Source: Pseudonocardiales bacterium (lineage in GTDB: Bacteria; Actinomycetota; Actinomycetes; Mycobacteriales; Jatrophihabitantaceae). From it: a stretch of 33,675 bases of DNA. The position numbers and the translations under genes are program-made. The notes beneath the pieces are model-generated. The model was not told the DNA's origin, searched no databases, and saw only the letters and a program-made list of their open reading frames with translations. This document shows positions 25,718-33,675 of this stretch, one piece after another; the first letter of the stretch is position 1; each line of letters starts with the position of its first letter. Where the stretch lies: NCBI GenBank assembly GCA_025965875.1, contig JAOPWD010000447.1, positions 1 through 33,675 on the forward strand, given 5' to 3'.

Positions 25718-25786
25718 GGAGAGGCGGAACTCGCGGCCCTCAGGGTCGTGCATCAGCCAGAAGGCCCGTGCGCACCGCCGGATCGG
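25718..25786 (-). pseudogene. Probable 3' remnant of a VOC/glyoxalase-like gene
   Basis: Immediately after the uvrA TGA the same reading frame stays open and reads [20 protein letters not shown] then RL. The FWLM-x-DPEG-x-EF-x-L pattern is the usual last beta-strand of glyoxalase/VOC-fold proteins (Glyoxalase_6-like, where DPEGNEFC is common). There is no start and no N-terminal part, so it would be only the tail of a lost gene, left between uvrA and the deaminase. It rests on pattern recognition of about 20 residues. Confidence 0.45.
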
Positions 25787-28693
25787 TCACCGGGCAGCTG
25801 CCGTCGCCTTGGTCTTGGTCCGGGCTCGCTTCGCGGGCTTGCGCACCGGCCGCTCGTCGAGCATGTGCCGCAGGTACTGCCCGGTGTAGGAGCCGGGTAC
25901 GTCGACGACCTGCTCGGGCGTGCCCTGTGCGACCACCTGCCCGCCGCCCGAGCCGCCCTCGGGGCCCATGTCGATGATCCAGTCGGCCGTTTTGATGACG
26001 TCGAGGTTGTGCTCGATGACGATGACCGAGTTGCTCTTGTCGACCAGCTCATGCAATACGCCGAGCAGCTTGCTGACGTCCTCGAAGTGCAGGCCGGTGG
26101 TCGGCTCGTCCAGAACGTAGATCGTGCGGCCGGTGGAGCGCTTCTGCAGCTCGGAGGCCAGCTTCACCCGCTGCGCCTCTCCCCCGGACAGCGTCGGCGC
26201 CGGCTGCCCGAGACGGACGTAACCGAGCCCGACATCGACGAGCGTGTCCAGGTGCCGGGCGATCCGGGTGATCGGCGCGAAGAACTCGGCGGCCTCCTCG
26301 ATCGGCATCTCGAGCACTTCGCTGATCGTCTTGCCCTTGTAATGCACCTCGAGCGTCTCGCGGTTGTACCGGGCGCCCTTGCAGACCTCGCACGGGACGT
26401 AGACGTCGGGCAGGAAGTTCATCTCGATCTTGATCGTGCCGTCGCCGGCGCAGTTCTCGCACCGCCCGCCCTTGTCGTTGAACGAGAACCGGCCCTGCTG
26501 GTAGCCGCGGATCTTCGCCTCGGTGGTCTCGCTGAACAGCTTGCGGATGTGGTCGAAGACGCCGGTGTAGGTGGCCGGGTTGGACCGCGGGGTGCGGCCG
26601 ATCGGCGACTGGTCGACACCGACGACCTTGTCGACTTGCTCGACACCGCGCACCCGCTTGTGCCGGCCCGGCGGCAGCTTGGCGCCGTTGATCTTGTTGG
26701 CCAGCGAGGCGTACAGGATGTCGTTGACGAGCGTCGACTTGCCCGAGCCGCTGACCCCGGTGACCGCGACGAAGCAGCCGAGCGGGAAAGCGACGTCGAT
26801 GTCGCGCAGGTTGTGCTCGCGGGCGCCTTCGACAACGAGTTCGCGGCCGCGCGCCCGCGGCCGGCGGATCATCGGCACCGGGATGGACCGTCGCCCCGAC
26901 AGGTAGGCGCCGGTGATCGAGTCGTCGGACGCGAGCAGATCGTCGACCGTGCCACTGACGACGATGTTGCCGCCGTGCTCGCCGGCATGCGGGCCGATGT
27001 CGACCACCCAGTCGGCCGCGCGGATGGTGTCTTCGTCGTGCTCGACGACGATCAGGGTGTTGCCGAGATCGCGCAGCCGCACGAGCGTTTCGATGAGCCG
27101 GTGGTTGTCGCGCTGGTGCAGCCCGATCGACGGCTCGTCCAGCACATACAGCACCCCGACCAGGCCGGAGCCGATCTGGGTGGCGAGCCGGATGCGCTGC
27201 GCCTCGCCGCCGGCCAGTGTGGCCGCGGCGCGGTCGAGCGAGAGGTAGTGCAGGCCGACGTCGACGAGGAAGCCGAGGCGGGCGTGCACTTCCTTGAGCA
27301 CGCGCTCGGCGATGAACAGGTCGCGGTCGCTGAGCTCGAGGTCTCGCAACACGTCGGCGGCATCGCCGATCGAGAGCGCGGCCACCTCGGCGATCGAGCG
27401 GCCGCCGACCGTTACCGCCAGGATCTCGGGCTTGAGCCGGGTGCCCTGGCAGGTCGGGCACGGCACCTCGCGCATGAAGCCCTCGTACTTCTCGCGCGAG
27501 TAGTCGCTCTCGGTCTCGGCGTAGCGCCGCTCGATCCACGGCACGACGCCCTCGTAGTTGGCGTAGTAGGAGCGGTCGCGGCCGTACCGATTCCGGTAGC
27601 TGACGTGCACCTGCTCGCCGGTGCCGTGCAGCACCGCCTTCTGGGCCCGCGCCGGCAACTTCTCCCACGGCGTGTCGAGGTCGAAGCCCTCGGCGTCGGC
27701 CACGCCCTGCAGCAGCCGCAGGAAGTATTCGCTGGTCTGACCGGCCGCCCACGGGGCGATTGCGCCCTCGCTGAGCGGCAGTTCCGGGTCGGGGACGACC
27801 AGCTCAGGGTCGACCTCCTTGCGGGTGCCCAGGCCGGTGCAGACCGGGCAGGCACCGAAGGGCGCGTTGAACGAAAACGACCGCGGTTCGAGCTCGTCGA
27901 TGGCCAGCGGATGGTCGTTGGGGCAGGCCAGCCGTTCGGAATAGCGCCGCTCGCGGTGCGGGTCGTCGTCGGGCAGGTCGATGAAGTCGAGGATGACCAG
28001 CCCCCCGGCGAGGCCGAGCGCCGTCTCGACGGAGTCGGTGATGCGCTGCTTGCTGGACGCCTTCGCGGTGAGCCGGTCGACGACCGCCTCGATGGTGTGC
28101 TTTTCCTGCTTCTTGAGCTTGGGCGGCTCGGTGAGTGAGTGCACGACGCCATCGACACGCACCCGCGCGAACCCCTTGGTCTGCAGGTCGGCGAACAGGT
28201 CGACGTATTCGCCCTTGCGCTCGCGAATGACGGGCGCCAGCACTTGAAAGCGGGTGCCCTCGGGCATCTCGAGGATGCGGTCGACGATCTGCTGCGGGGT
28301 CTGCTTGCTGATCGGCTCGCCGCAGACCGGACAGTGCGGCTTGCCGATGCGGGCGTACAGCAGGCGCAGGTAGTCGTAGACCTCGGTGATCGTGCCGACC
28401 GTGGAGCGCGGGTTGCGCGACGTCGACTTCTGGTCGATCGAGACGGCGGGCGACAGCCCCTCGATGAAGTCGACGTCGGGTTTGTCCATCTGGCCCAGGA
28501 ACTGGCGGGCATACGCGGACAGTGACTCGACGTAACGGCGCTGGCCCTCGGCGAAGATCGTGTCGAACGCCAGGCTGGATTTGCCCGATCCGGACAGCCC
28601 GGTGAACACGATCAGGGAGTCGCGGGGCAGGTCGATATTGACGTCCTTGAGGTTGTGCTCTCGGGCGCCGCGCACGATCAGACGGTCGTTCAA
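25787..28693 (-). CDS. uvrA: Excinuclease ABC subunit A
   Basis: A 968-residue UvrA, the damage-recognition ATPase of nucleotide excision repair. Two ABC modules are seen: Walker [10 protein letters not shown] (32-40) and GVSGSGKST, signatures [12 protein letters not shown] and [12 protein letters not shown], and Walker [12 protein letters not shown] and [11 protein letters not shown]. Zinc-binding cysteine pairs [14 protein letters not shown] and CENCAGDG with CEVCKGARY are present. The UvrB-binding insert follows the first Walker A. The C-terminus has a basic tail ([17 protein letters not shown]). The start is TTG 28691-28693 ([16 protein letters not shown]); an in-frame TGA sits two codons further upstream, so no longer start exists. 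The SD is weak. uvrB is not in the window. Confidence 0.96.
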
Positions 28694-30135: not shown

Positions 30136-31884
30136 TCAGCTCCGGACGGCGGCTGCGATCGCGTCCACCGCGTCAGCGACCGGGACGTCGGTGCGCTCGT
30201 CCGTGCGGCGATCGCGCAGTTCGATGACACCGTCGGCGAGGTTCTTGCCCACGATCACGATCGTCGGGACGCCCAGCAGTTCGGCGTCCTTGAACTTGAC
30301 GCCCGGCGAGACGCCGCGGCGGTCGTCGTAGAGCACCCGCACGCCGCCGGCCTCCAGCCCGTCCGCGATAGACGTGGCCGCCTCGAACACCGCGTCGTCC
30401 TTGCCGGTGGCGACGATATGCACGTCGGCCGGCGCGACGATGCGCGGCCAGCACAGCCCCTTCTCGTCATGGGTCTGCTCTGCCAGCGCGGCCACCGCCC
30501 TGGTGATGCCAACGCCGTAGGAGCCCATCGTCACCGTCACCGGCTTGCCGTTCTGATCGAGCGCGGTGAGCCCGAACGCCTCGGCGAACTTGCGGCCGAG
30601 CTGGAAGACGTGCCCCAGTTCGATGCCGCGGGAGATCTTCAACGGACTGCCGCACCGTGAGCACAGATCGCCGTCGCGGATCTCCACGGCGCCGATCTCG
30701 CCGTCGGGCGTGAAGTCGCGGCCGCGCACGACAAAGGCCGCGTGCCGGTCCAACTGGTTGGCGCCGGTCACCCACGCGCTGCCCTCGACCACCAGCGGGT
30801 CGACCAGGTAGCGCACCTTCGCGTCGGCCAAGATCTGCGGACCGATGTAGCCCTTCACCAGCTGGGGCGCCTGGGCCAGATCCTCGGGACCGGCCTGCTC
30901 GACCTCGGTGGGCTCCAGCTGGCCGCCGATGCGCTTGAGGTCGACGTCGCGGTCGCCCGGCACGCCGACGACGAGCAGCTCCCACTCGTCCGAACCCGGG
31001 GCGCGGGTCTTCAGCACGACGTTCTTGAGCGTGTCCGCAGCCGTGAACTCCTTGCCAAGATCCATCTCGTTCAACCGATCGACCAGCGTCTGGATCGTGG
31101 GGGTGTCGGGCGTGTCCAGGACCTGCTGCGCGTCGTGATCGGTCGGGTCGTGCGGGGCGGGTGCGGCGATCTCGACCGCCTCGGTGTTGGCCGCGTAGTC
31201 GCAGTTGGTGCACTGGACGAACGTGTCCTCTCCCGACGGAGTGGGAGCCAGGAACTCCTCGGACGCGGAGCCGCCCATCGCCCCCGACATGGCGAACGCG
31301 ATCCGGTAGTCGAAGCCGAGGCGGGTGAAGATCCGCTCGTAGGCGTCGCGGTGCGCCTTGTACGACGCGGCCAGCCCCTCATCGGACAGGTCGAACGAGT
31401 ACGAGTCCTTCATGATGAACTCGCGCCCGCGCAGGATGCCGGCCCGCGGGCGTGCCTCGTCGCGGAATTTGGTCTGAATCTGGTAGAGCGAGAGCGGGTA
31501 GTCCTTGTAGGACGAGTACTCGCCTTTCACCAGCAGGGTGAACAGCTCCTCGTGCGTCGGGCCCAGCAGGTATTCGGCGCCCTTACGGTCGCGCAGCCGG
31601 AACAGCGCGTCGCCGTAGTCGGCCCACCGCCCGCTCGCTTCGAAGATCTCGCGCGGAATCAACGCCGGGAAGTGCACCTCCTGCGAGCCGATCGAGGCCA
31701 TCTCCTCGCGCACGACCCGTTCGACGCTGTTCAGCACCGCCAGTCCGAGCGGCAGCCACGAGTAGATGCCCGGCGCCACCCGCCGCACGTACCCGGCGCG
31801 GACCAGCAGGCGGTGGCTCGGCACCTCGGCATCGGCGGGGTCGTCGCGCAAGGTTCTGAGGAAGAGGGTCGAGAGTCGCAGCAC
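30136..31884 (-). CDS. proS: Prolyl-tRNA synthetase, bacterial type
   Basis: A 582-residue class II aminoacyl-tRNA synthetase that charges tRNA-Pro. Motif 2 region: [31 protein letters not shown]; motif 3 region: [17 protein letters not shown]. Between them is the about 180-residue insertion (editing) domain of the bacterial-type enzyme, with [10 protein letters not shown] and the [10 protein letters not shown] stretch. The anticodon-binding domain closes the protein ([18 protein letters not shown] to the end). N-terminus [26 protein letters not shown] is typical. It starts at GTG 31882-31884, 6 nt after a TAGCCT -10 box, so the mRNA is probably leaderless. It is divergent from the RIO kinase gene. 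Confidence 0.97.
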
Positions 31885-31890
31885 GCCGCA

Positions 31891-31896
31891 AGGCTA
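31891..31896 (-). promoter_or_regulatory. -10 box TAGCCT, 6 nt before proS
   Basis: TAGCCT on the minus strand fits TANNNT and is followed by 6 nt and GTG. No SD is present. It supports both the start chosen for proS and a leaderless transcript. Confidence 0.48.
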
Positions 31897-31993
31897 TCCA
31901 CCCGCTTATTCAGTTGCGCAGGGGTTGTCGACCGACCAGTCTGGACGGTGATTCGCGCTCGTGGAGCGCTGACGGTTGCGAAGGAGGGTCCCC

Positions 31994-32050
31994 GTGTCGA
32001 TGACTGCCGCCCGGGTGACGACCTTGCGCACCCGTCCCCCCTCGCGCTGA
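31994..32050 (+). CDS. Upstream ORF (18 codons) in the RIO kinase leader
   Basis: A short ORF, VSMTAARVTTLRTRPPSR, starts at GTG 31994 with a perfect AAGGAGG at 31981-31987, 6 nt upstream, and ends at TGA 32048-32050, 46 nt before the kinase start. ATG 32000 is an alternative start. The SD is stronger than that of almost any real gene in the window, which argues that it is translated. The peptide is basic, with four arginines and a PP pair near its end. It has no known relatives that I recognise. A regulatory leader peptide is the most likely role, but it could also be a chance ORF. Confidence 0.45.
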   Translation: MSMTAARVTTLRTRPPSR

Positions 32051-32052
32051 GC

Positions 32053-32089
32053 GCCCGGCTTCCGGGCAGGCGCGAGCCCTCCCGAGGAG
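32053..32089 (+). promoter_or_regulatory. Hairpin after the upstream ORF and partly sequestered RIO kinase SD
   Basis: GCCCGG (32053-32058), 3-base loop, CCGGGC (32062-32067) forms a perfect 6-bp stem that begins 3 nt after the upstream ORF stop. Downstream, CTCC (32079-32082) can pair with GGAG (32086-32089), which is part of the kinase Shine-Dalgarno GAGGAG (32084-32089). A ribosome on the upstream ORF would disturb the first stem. The order of uORF, hairpin and masked SD resembles translational attenuation. Confidence 0.4.
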
Positions 32090-32096
32090 CCTTCCA

Positions 32097-32939
32097 GTGC
32101 AACTGGACCCAACCCCGTTCGACGATCCATTCAGTGATTCCGACAGTGATTCCGACAGTGCTTCCGACAGTGAGCCCAACTTCTCCAGTTGGGACACCGC
32201 AACACACGGCCCCGAACCCAGGCCCGATTGGGTGGTCACCGACCTGTCCGCCATCGACACCGAGTTCGGCATCCTGAAGACCGGAAAAGAAGCCGACGTC
32301 CACCTCGTGCGGCGCGCCCAGGACAGCGGACCCGAGTCACTGCTCGCCGCCAAGCGCTACCGCACGGCCGAGCACCGCATGTTTCATCGCGACGCCGGCT
32401 ATCAAGAGGGTCGGCGCACCCGCCGCACCCGTGACACCCGCGCCATGGCGCGCCGGACGACCTTCGGCCGCGATCTGCTCTCCGGCCAGTGGGCCGCGGC
32501 GGAGTTCGCCGCCCTGAGCTCCCTCTGGCTGGCCGGCGCACCGGTCCCCTACCCCGTGCAGTTAGCCGGGACCGAGCTGATGATGGAGTTCATCGGCGAA
32601 CCGGACGGCACGGCCGCGCCGCGGTTGGCCCAGTCGCGTCCAACCCCGACCGAACTGACCGATCTGTTCGACCAGTGCGTCGCTGCGATGCGACTGCTCG
32701 CCCGGGCCGGACTGGCCCATGGTGACCTCTCGGCCTACAACCTGCTGGTGCACCACGGCCGGCTGGTGATGATCGATCTCCCGCAGATCGTGGATCTGGT
32801 CGCAAACCCACGGGGACAGGACTACCTGCATCGCGACTGCGAGAACGTCTGCAAATGGTTCGCGGGCCGCGGGCTGGAGACGATCGAGTTCGAACACCTC
32901 TTCGGCGACCTGATGGCCGAAGCGGTCGGCAGGTGGTAG
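32097..32939 (+). CDS. RIO-type serine/threonine kinase
   Basis: A 280-residue RIO1-like atypical protein kinase. The phosphate loop analogue is FGILKTGKEADVHLV (57-71), the ATP-binding lysine is K86 in AAKRY, the catalytic loop is H208-GD210-LSAYN215, and the metal-binding aspartate is D227 in VMIDLPQ. YLHRDCENVCKWF near the C-terminus is the typical RIO tail. Before the kinase domain is an acidic Ser/Asp run (residues 13-26) encoded by a 12-bp tandem repeat. Eukaryotic and archaeal RIO kinases act in ribosome maturation; the bacterial role is unknown. It starts at GTG 32097 with GAGGAG 7 nt upstream. The gene has its own leader with an upstream ORF and is divergent from proS. Confidence 0.88.
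   Translation: MQLDPTPFDDPFSDSDSDSDSASDSEPNFSSWDTATHGPEPRPDWVVTDLSAIDTEFGILKTGKEADVHLVRRAQDSGPESLLAAKRYRTAEHRMFHRDAGYQEGRRTRRTRDTRAMARRTTFGRDLLSGQWAAAEFAALSSLWLAGAPVPYPVQLAGTELMMEFIGEPDGTAAPRLAQSRPTPTELTDLFDQCVAAMRLLARAGLAHGDLSAYNLLVHHGRLVMIDLPQIVDLVANPRGQDYLHRDCENVCKWFAGRGLETIEFEHLFGDLMAEAVGRW
32133..32168 (+). repeat. 12-bp tandem repeat (3 copies) in the RIO kinase N-terminus
   Basis: AGTGATTCCGAC occurs at 32133-32144 and 32145-32156, then AGTGCTTCCGAC at 32157-32168, followed by a partial copy AGTGAG. It encodes the run SDSDSDSDSASDSE. Being in frame and a multiple of three, copy-number change would lengthen or shorten the acidic tail without a frameshift. Confidence 0.9.
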
Positions 32940-32986: not shown

Positions 32987-33675
32987 GTGCAGCACTACGA
33001 CCTGGCGATCATCGGATCCGGCTCCGGCAACTCGGTGGTCGGGCCCGAGTTCGACGACTGGCAGGTCGCCGTCATCGAGGAGTCGACGTTCGGTGGCACC
33101 TGCCTGAACGTCGGTTGTATCCCCACCAAGATGTTCGTCTATCCCGCCGACCTGGCCGAGGGAGTACGGCACAGCGCCCGGCTCGGAGTCGACGCCCAGC
33201 TGCGCGGCGTGCGCTGGCGCGACATTCGCGATCGCGTGTTCGGCCGCATCGACCCCATCTCGGCGGGCGGCCGCGAGTACCGCGCAACCGGGTCGCCGAA
33301 CACGACCCTGCTCGAAGCCCACGCGTCCTTTGTCGACCCGCACACGCTCGAGCTGTCGACCGGCGAGACGATCACCGCCGACCGGATCGTCCTGGCGACG
33401 GGTTCGCGACCGAGGCTGCCTGCGGTGGTCATGGCCACGGACGCGCCGTTCCACACGTCCGAGACGGTCATGCGGGTGGACGACCTGCCCGAGCGCATCG
33501 CGATCTTGGGCGGGGGCTACATCGCGGCCGAGTTCGCGCACATCTTTGCCGCGTTCGGCGTCCACACCACTGTGATCGCGCGCAGCCACCCATTGCTGCG
33601 TCATCTCGATCTGGAGATCGCCGGGCGTTTCACCGAACTGGTGAAGGACCGCTGGGATGTTCGGCTGGATGCTGC
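32987..33675 (+). CDS. mtr: Mycothione reductase, 5' part (cut by the window end)
   Basis: The first 229 residues of a flavoprotein disulfide reductase; the gene runs off the right edge. The FAD motif GSGSGN (10-15) and the redox-active disulfide C39 and C44 in FGGTCLNVGCIPTK are present, followed by the TGSRPRLP segment and the NADPH-binding GGGYIAAEFAHIFAAFG. The N-terminus VQHYDLAIIGSGSGNSVV is the form seen in mycothione reductase rather than lipoamide dehydrogenase or mercuric reductase. It would reduce mycothiol disulfide with NADPH, fitting an actinobacterium that uses mycothiol. It starts at GTG 32987, 6 nt after a -10 box. Other pyridine nucleotide disulfide reductases cannot be fully excluded without the C-terminal half. 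Confidence 0.85.
   Translation, partial: MQHYDLAIIGSGSGNSVVGPEFDDWQVAVIEESTFGGTCLNVGCIPTKMFVYPADLAEGVRHSARLGVDAQLRGVRWRDIRDRVFGRIDPISAGGREYRATGSPNTTLLEAHASFVDPHTLELSTGETITADRIVLATGSRPRLPAVVMATDAPFHTSETVMRVDDLPERIAILGGGYIAAEFAHIFAAFGVHTTVIARSHPLLRHLDLEIAGRFTELVKDRWDVRLDA

Follow-up and report, generated by a model that had tools for sequence, protein, structure and literature searches.

A conserved upstream open reading frame, competing RNA pairings and a putative WhiB7/WblC-type promoter in the leaders of actinobacterial RIO kinase genes

The RIO kinase gene of a Pseudonocardiales contig (JAOPWD010000447.1; the window, that is, the whole stretch of 33,675 nt that was analysed) is preceded by a leader which probably ties the expression of the kinase to ribosome trouble, by combining a WhiB7-type promoter with a translational attenuator. 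This reading draws on features read from the sequences, namely the conservation of a short upstream open reading frame (uORF), coevolving RNA pairings, the promoter, and its co-occurrence with WhiB7. From these, we infer that the uORF is translated and bound by ribosomes, that WhiB7 binds the promoter, which way the switch works, what induces it, and that the kinase acts on ribosomes.

The kinase matches the domain PF01163 (E 4.8e-36) and the chains of RIO1 structures (E 2.8e-19), and carries a RIO domain with TGKEADV, HGDLSAYN, and IDLPQ, which we take to be the RIO kinase motifs. In the archaea and eukaryotes, RIO proteins are widespread as ATPases/kinases of ribosome maturation, whereas their bacterial counterparts are not known to have an established role. 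The N-terminus in the window bears an Asp-Ser repeat (DSDSDSASDSE, 32130-32175), which is missing in a relative of the same genus. A gene for mycothione reductase begins at 32987 (forward strand), 47 nt past the end of the RIO gene, with which it may share a transcript; this order is found in 4 of the 161 oriented loci compared below, all near relatives, many loci being too short to tell. Elsewhere in the window, an open frame of 796 codons (25748-28138, forward strand) lies antisense to a gene at 25787-28693 (reverse strand), presumably UvrA-like, as named from its translation, and is probably a shadow ORF of GC-rich DNA.

The elements of the leader, in which SD stands for Shine-Dalgarno, are as follows:

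31906-31910, forward strand: AT-rich box TTATT, 3 nt upstream of the -35 element, a putative WhiB7 AT-hook site at the published spacing
31914-31919, forward strand: -35 element TTGCGC, following the WblC-type grammar
31937-31942, forward strand: -10 element CAGTCT, after a 17-nt spacer, with A2 and T6 of the WblC-type grammar kept and T1 lost
31981-31987, forward strand: uORF SD AAGGAGG (segment A), read directly
31994-32050, forward strand: uORF of 18 codons, MSMTAARVTTLRTRPPSR, from GTG at 31994 to TGA at 32048-32050, from sequence and comparison
32041-32048, forward strand: segment C, the 3' end of the uORF, CTCGCGCT, pairing with 32069-32076 (GGCGCGAG) in the predicted C:D form
32053-32067, forward strand: perfect 6-bp stem, GCCCGG (32053-32058), CTT, CCGGGC (32062-32067), enclosed by C:D
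32057-32066, forward strand: segment D, GGCTTCCGGG, forming the 5' arm in the predicted SD-masking hairpin D:E
32081-32091, forward strand: segment E, 3' arm CCCGAGGAGCC of the same predicted hairpin, holding the kinase SD
32097-32939, forward strand: RIO kinase of 280 aa with a GTG start, identified by PF01163 and RIO1 structures

Across loci, A denotes the uORF SD, B the middle of the uORF, C its 3' end, D the arm past its stop, and E the region of the kinase SD. The 6-bp stem begins 3 nt past the uORF stop, and the kinase SD, GAGGAG (32084-32089), has a complementary CTCC just upstream. Direct reading bears out all that the initial annotation had described here, that is, AAGGAGG, the ORF of 18 codons, the 6-bp stem, and a kinase SD able to pair. 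The fold of 151 nt in the window is modestly stable (z -1.75, with 11 of 200 shuffles as good).

The comparison covered loci within the Actinomycetota, gathered from a set of 80 loci, a search of the phylum (35 of 296 genomes matched), and a search of the class (64 of 394); the 169 tblastn loci were reduced to 161 by the removal of identical leaders. A uORF was defined as an ORF of 8-60 codons near the kinase, with a start codon and an SD in which five or more contiguous bases are complementary to the anti-SD, and is present in 148 of the 161 non-redundant RIO loci. The other 13 loci, set aside as having no short ORF with such an SD, include at least six with a family-like uORF whose SD is weaker or whose position is more distant. 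The kinase start was undefined in 4 of the 148 loci. In 140 of the remaining 144 (and thus of the full 161), the uORF lies 25-160 nt before the kinase start, while a uORF at this distance precedes 11 of 230 other ORF starts from these loci, taken as controls, and appears in 2.8% of leaders after shuffling. Kinase starts were chosen downstream of the uORF, which lends the comparison a small favourable bias. The uORF is found even in very distant members of the phylum, in which the kinase is only 33-40% identical. The retention of the uORF or stem in close relatives, whose absence the initial annotation had named as adverse, holds for the uORF in most of this sample, and for the exact 6-bp stem only within the genus (L084), with different stems taking its place elsewhere.

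The loci fall into two main classes, with 7 of the 148 assigned to neither. In class I (90 loci), 20-110 nt, mostly 34-103 nt, separate the uORF stop from the kinase, and in class II (51 loci), the uORF overlaps the kinase start, so that the stop-to-start distance is negative. Of 50 class II leaders, 38 have a start-to-start offset (52-70 nt overall) of 1 mod 3 and 12 one of 2 mod 3, an offset of 0 mod 3 being excluded by construction. Two loci (L101, L103) have two short ORFs with strong SDs before the kinase, and in six distant members of the phylum (L099, L106, L108-L111), the uORF SD GGAGGGAUG can pair with CGUCCCUCC, a stretch within the uORF that encodes the recurring Arg-Pro-Ser.

The putative promoter of the leader resembles a known type. 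In the available sections of PMC7157823, the WblC/WhiB7 promoter is given as GAAAWY, 3 bp, a -35 element TKGMNN, a spacer of 16-19 bp, and a -10 element TANNNT, with less T at the first -10 position of the strongly WblC-dependent promoters, and a grammar of this type also appears in the parts available of PMC3905903 and PMC10727445. The window reads TTATT-CAG-TTGCGC from the box to the -35 element (31906-31919), the latter fitting TKGMNN, and its 17-nt spacer lies within the range given in those sections. By the 7-8 nt rule given there (PMC7157823), transcription is predicted to start at about 31949-31950, upstream of 31994, the position past which a start had been named as adverse by the initial annotation. 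A promoter of the form TTG-N-[TC]ANNNT occurs upstream of the uORF in 67 of 144 leaders, compared with 4.2 in shuffles, and an AT-rich box was found upstream of the -35 element. When the scan required A/T at four positions of the box, and not the T1 of the -10 element, the WblC-type promoter was recovered in 83 of 144 RIO leaders, mostly with spacers of 17-18 nt, where shuffling predicts 0.1 matches, and in just 2 of the 4,533 windows used as controls. Both strands of the whole window were scanned, and the promoter of the RIO leader is the only one of this type.

The genome to which the window belongs encodes a WhiB7 with EPWGVWGG and the AT-hook RGRPRK, and the region upstream of this whiB7 gene has an AT-rich box before TTGCGG. 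A promoter matrix trained on 55 sites, and applied to other genomes at a control rate of 0.5%, gave a hit in 52 of 59 genomes that encode a WhiB7-like protein and 1 of 21 that lack one (Fisher p 5e-12), an association that is partly phylogenetic, given that the genomes lacking WhiB7 sit in a few clades. This covered 80 of the 85 RIO genomes, with the WhiB7 status judged by E-value (about 1e-18 or better). The lineages without WhiB7 retain the uORF, and of the two controls, the attenuator therefore seems to have the wider distribution.

The conserved feature of the leader is the logic of its RNA, in which C and E compete for the intervening arm D. Against shuffles of the partner in 88 leaders, the C:D pairing has a mean z of -1.55, with 36 leaders within the best 5%, and D:E a mean z of -1.13, with 25 leaders, the controls giving 0.09 (B:E) and -0.29 (A:D). 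The best C:D and D:E stems share D in 88 of 89 leaders, although much overlap is to be expected in any case, D being short. In the window, C:D has a z of -2.22, with none of 100 shuffles as good, and D:E (z -1.09, 13 of 100) is not exceptional. Own partners were also compared with partners swapped between 42 leader clusters, with a signal for C:D (z -0.74 ± 0.15; 36 of 42 better than the median), D:E (-0.59 ± 0.11; 32 of 42), and A:B (-0.53 ± 0.16; 28 of 42), and none for the controls (A:D 0.04, B:E 0.11, C:E 0.12, A:E 0.05). Judged from these sequences, C:D and D:E coevolve across the 42 clusters, and the control pairings do not. There was no signal for B:E in either the shuffle or the swap test, and A:B had no median excess over shuffles in class I (z -0.09). 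The structure tests omit leaders with N or with a stop-to-start distance outside the chosen range, and the swap test also omits one further leader (L144).

In an alignment of 23 sequences, RNAalifold recovered the C:D helix unprompted, with 98.4% of it paired and a double change from GC to CG in 9 of the 23, and the covariation of the whole structure was 0.117, compared with 0.063 (none of 500 shuffles). For alignments A1 (class II) and A3 (Pseudonocardiales), both based on sequence, the same program returned no pairs. Within class II, one leader (L038) was left out, 46 of 50 were used in the swap test, and alignment A1 omits 10 of the 50. A:B gave no signal in the class II swap test (-0.15 ± 0.19), which only the central hairpin passed (P:Q z -0.73 ± 0.22). 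This covarying hairpin, GGCCUG..CAGACC or GGGC..GCCC, lies inside the overlapping uORF (in L172, L161, and L086, for example). In the same class, a conserved ACTGTC follows the start codon, and may be a site for a protein or ligand.

The uORF is probably translated. In pairs of class I leaders that share 75% identity or more, pairs which are not independent of one another, 40 of 68 gaps inside the uORF are multiples of three, against 32 of 213 outside it, a contrast that fades at looser cut-offs (weak at 0.60-0.70). No such signal was found in class II at any identity cut-off, and the test was uninformative with lax filters. Valine, threonine, alanine, and isoleucine are enriched in the frame of the uORF relative to its other frames. 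The variable columns in 12 groups of close relatives are distributed 39/44/38 over the three codon positions, with no codon-position bias found in these groups, and the peptide is thus under no visible selection, which suggests that the product of the uORF is not the signal.

To approach the direction of the switch, we computed how much energy it takes to open the kinase SD and start when masking of the leader ends at varying positions. Of the 42 clusters, 31 open the kinase SD more easily with an early stall than with masking to the uORF stop, and 7 less easily (p 6e-7); with a footprint to stop+9, the counts are 25 and 9 (p 6e-4), and at stop+12, where the effect fades, 22 and 15 (p 0.08). 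The leader's own C opens the kinase SD better than a swapped C in 31 of 42. At the level of the phylum, the model thus predicts that full translation of the uORF favours the OFF state of the kinase and early stalling the ON state, with the kinase SD masked in one form and freed in the alternative. In the window, the cost is 9.6-12.9 kcal/mol when the masking ends within the uORF, highest (16.5) when it reaches about stop+3, and lowest (7.8) at stop+9, and the direction is ambiguous, since it depends on the footprint assumed.

Under the proposed mechanism, transcription would be driven by a sigma-A promoter that depends on WhiB7/WblC (AT-rich box, 3 nt, TTGCGC, 17 nt, CAGTCT), and the induction of WhiB7 by ribosome-targeting antibiotics or amino-acid starvation would provide more RIO mRNA, on which the uORF, with its strong SD, would be translated. 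A ribosome that reaches the end of the uORF would cover C, leaving D:E to form and mask the kinase SD, whereas an early stall or a failure to initiate would allow C:D to form and leave the kinase SD freer. The position of the ribosome would count, and the peptide itself would hardly matter. In class II, translation of the uORF across the kinase start should interfere directly with the initiation of the kinase. Given that the promoter is of the WhiB7 type, ribosome-targeting drugs, one of several signals suggested by the initial annotation, are now favoured.

Another of these signals was the supply of arginine or proline, and an attenuator sensing either amino acid has some appeal in the window itself, where the peptide has four arginines and two adjacent prolines, and proS lies divergently upstream of the kinase. 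Over the whole comparison, this appears very improbable, as the peptide is not conserved and both residues occur less often in the frame of the uORF than in its other frames (Arg 12.4% against 18.9%, Pro 13.6% against 21.3%), with Pro-Pro in just 10 of 42 clusters. The even spread of changes over codon positions speaks against such sensing, as does the lack of a terminator; no intrinsic terminator was found before the kinase, in 31800-32200, by which a reading as a transcriptional terminator was also rejected. The proximity of proS, a clue in the window, recurs in only 5 of 161 loci. No run of regulatory codons of the trp type was found in the uORFs, nor any match to an NCBIfam leader-peptide family. 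The modest stability of the 151-nt fold is what a chance ORF with chance hairpins in GC-rich DNA might give, yet every comparative test opposes this (the uORF counts, controls, swap test, promoter, and WhiB7 co-occurrence), and conservation across the phylum refutes a chance origin, which we regard as scarcely credible.

It is also conceivable, if rather doubtful, that the WhiB7 promoter is real and that the uORF serves only for translation coupling or mRNA protection, keeping the leader open and raising the translation of the kinase. The strong SD and the lower opening cost in the window with masking to stop+9 agree with this, and reinitiation after leader genes has been proposed for the Actinobacteria (PMC4833913, in the part available). 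The proposed peak of 10-11 bp in that part of the source is, however, far from the distances of class I and the overlap of class II, and short-distance reinitiation was rejected on these grounds; nor does coupling have any need of coevolving C:D and D:E. The attenuation half of the earlier suggestion of attenuation or coupling is thus supported by the conserved uORF and the competing SD-masking structures, and coupling by reinitiation is unlikely from the distances. A further alternative is a structured RNA to which a ligand or protein binds, in the manner of a riboswitch or of autogenous control by the kinase, with an incidental uORF; this would account for conservation at the level of nucleotides rather than peptide, for the covarying central hairpin of class II, and for a hairpin near the start codon in some leaders. 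It seems an unlikely explanation, given the conserved SD and start of the uORF, the class I gaps in multiples of three, the class II offset that stays at 1 mod 3 in 38 of 50 leaders over lengths of 52-70 nt, and the in-frame enrichment of valine, alanine, and threonine; no Rfam element matched the leader.

According to PMC11550727 and PMC10727445, a uORF mediates the induction of whiB7 itself by antibiotics that target the ribosome, and PMC7157823 describes the WblC regulon of S. coelicolor as rich in proteins associated with the ribosome. A RIO kinase under a WhiB7-type promoter and a uORF attenuator fits a stress response to ribosome antibiotics. The evidence leans, if only slightly, toward a broader reading of the sequences, in which the actinobacterial RIO kinases would be ribosome-stress factors in the WhiB7/WblC response to starvation and to antibiotics that block translation, under a phylum-wide, peptide-independent uORF attenuator that persists without WhiB7. 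By analogy with RIO kinases of the archaea and eukaryotes, their target under these conditions may be the small ribosomal subunit. If so, bacterial RIO would have a testable role in helping ribosomes to survive or recover from antibiotic stress, and the WhiB7 regulon would gain a candidate factor of intrinsic tolerance.

No link of RIO to a uORF, WhiB7, or WblC was found among the matches listed from the open-access literature. The word RIO is absent from the main texts on S. coelicolor (PMC7157823) and M. abscessus (PMC10727445), and the word "kinase" from the former. The gene may have been overlooked because the standard model organisms for WhiB7 seem to lack it, given that it was found in none of eight same-order genomes of one family, inferred to be mycobacteria, and, among the genomes in the class search (394) inferred to be Streptomyces, in only two. 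The component parts are of known kinds, and their combination and the RIO gene as target are apparently new.

In translational attenuators such as those of ermC and cat, a first SD (SD1) and a short leader ORF are followed by competing stems and a masked second SD (SD2), and the erm leaders rely on a drug-specific stalling peptide. The RIO leader differs from the latter in that its uORF peptide is not conserved, and its target is a RIO kinase rather than a known resistance gene. The same order of SD1, short leader ORF, competing stems, and masked SD2 is shared with cplR, in the available text of PMC10201436. The toiL-topAI leader of E. coli, as described in the accessible sections of PMC12121999, is similar in having a multipurpose uORF that senses several classes of ribosome-targeting antibiotics, and a main gene whose occluded ribosome-binding site becomes free when ribosomes stall at one or another position. 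It is unlike the RIO leader in its gene, phylum, and promoter, and in toiL-topAI, Rho termination follows. With the promoters of the WblC regulon in S. coelicolor (PMC7157823) and the WhiB7 regulon in M. abscessus (PMC10727445), the RIO leader shares an AT-rich box 3 bp before a -35 element TKGMNN, and a spacer in the range of 16-19 nt. The whiB7/wblC leader itself, in the sections available of PMC11550727 and PMC10727445, is likewise actinobacterial, with alternative pairings that use the sequence of the uORF, an AT-rich WhiB7 promoter, and a gene that is off when the uORF is translated completely and on when translation is interrupted, as predicted here. It has a Rho-independent terminator and a long leader in those sections, whereas in the RIO leader, where no terminator was found, the element predicted to be masked is the SD of the kinase.
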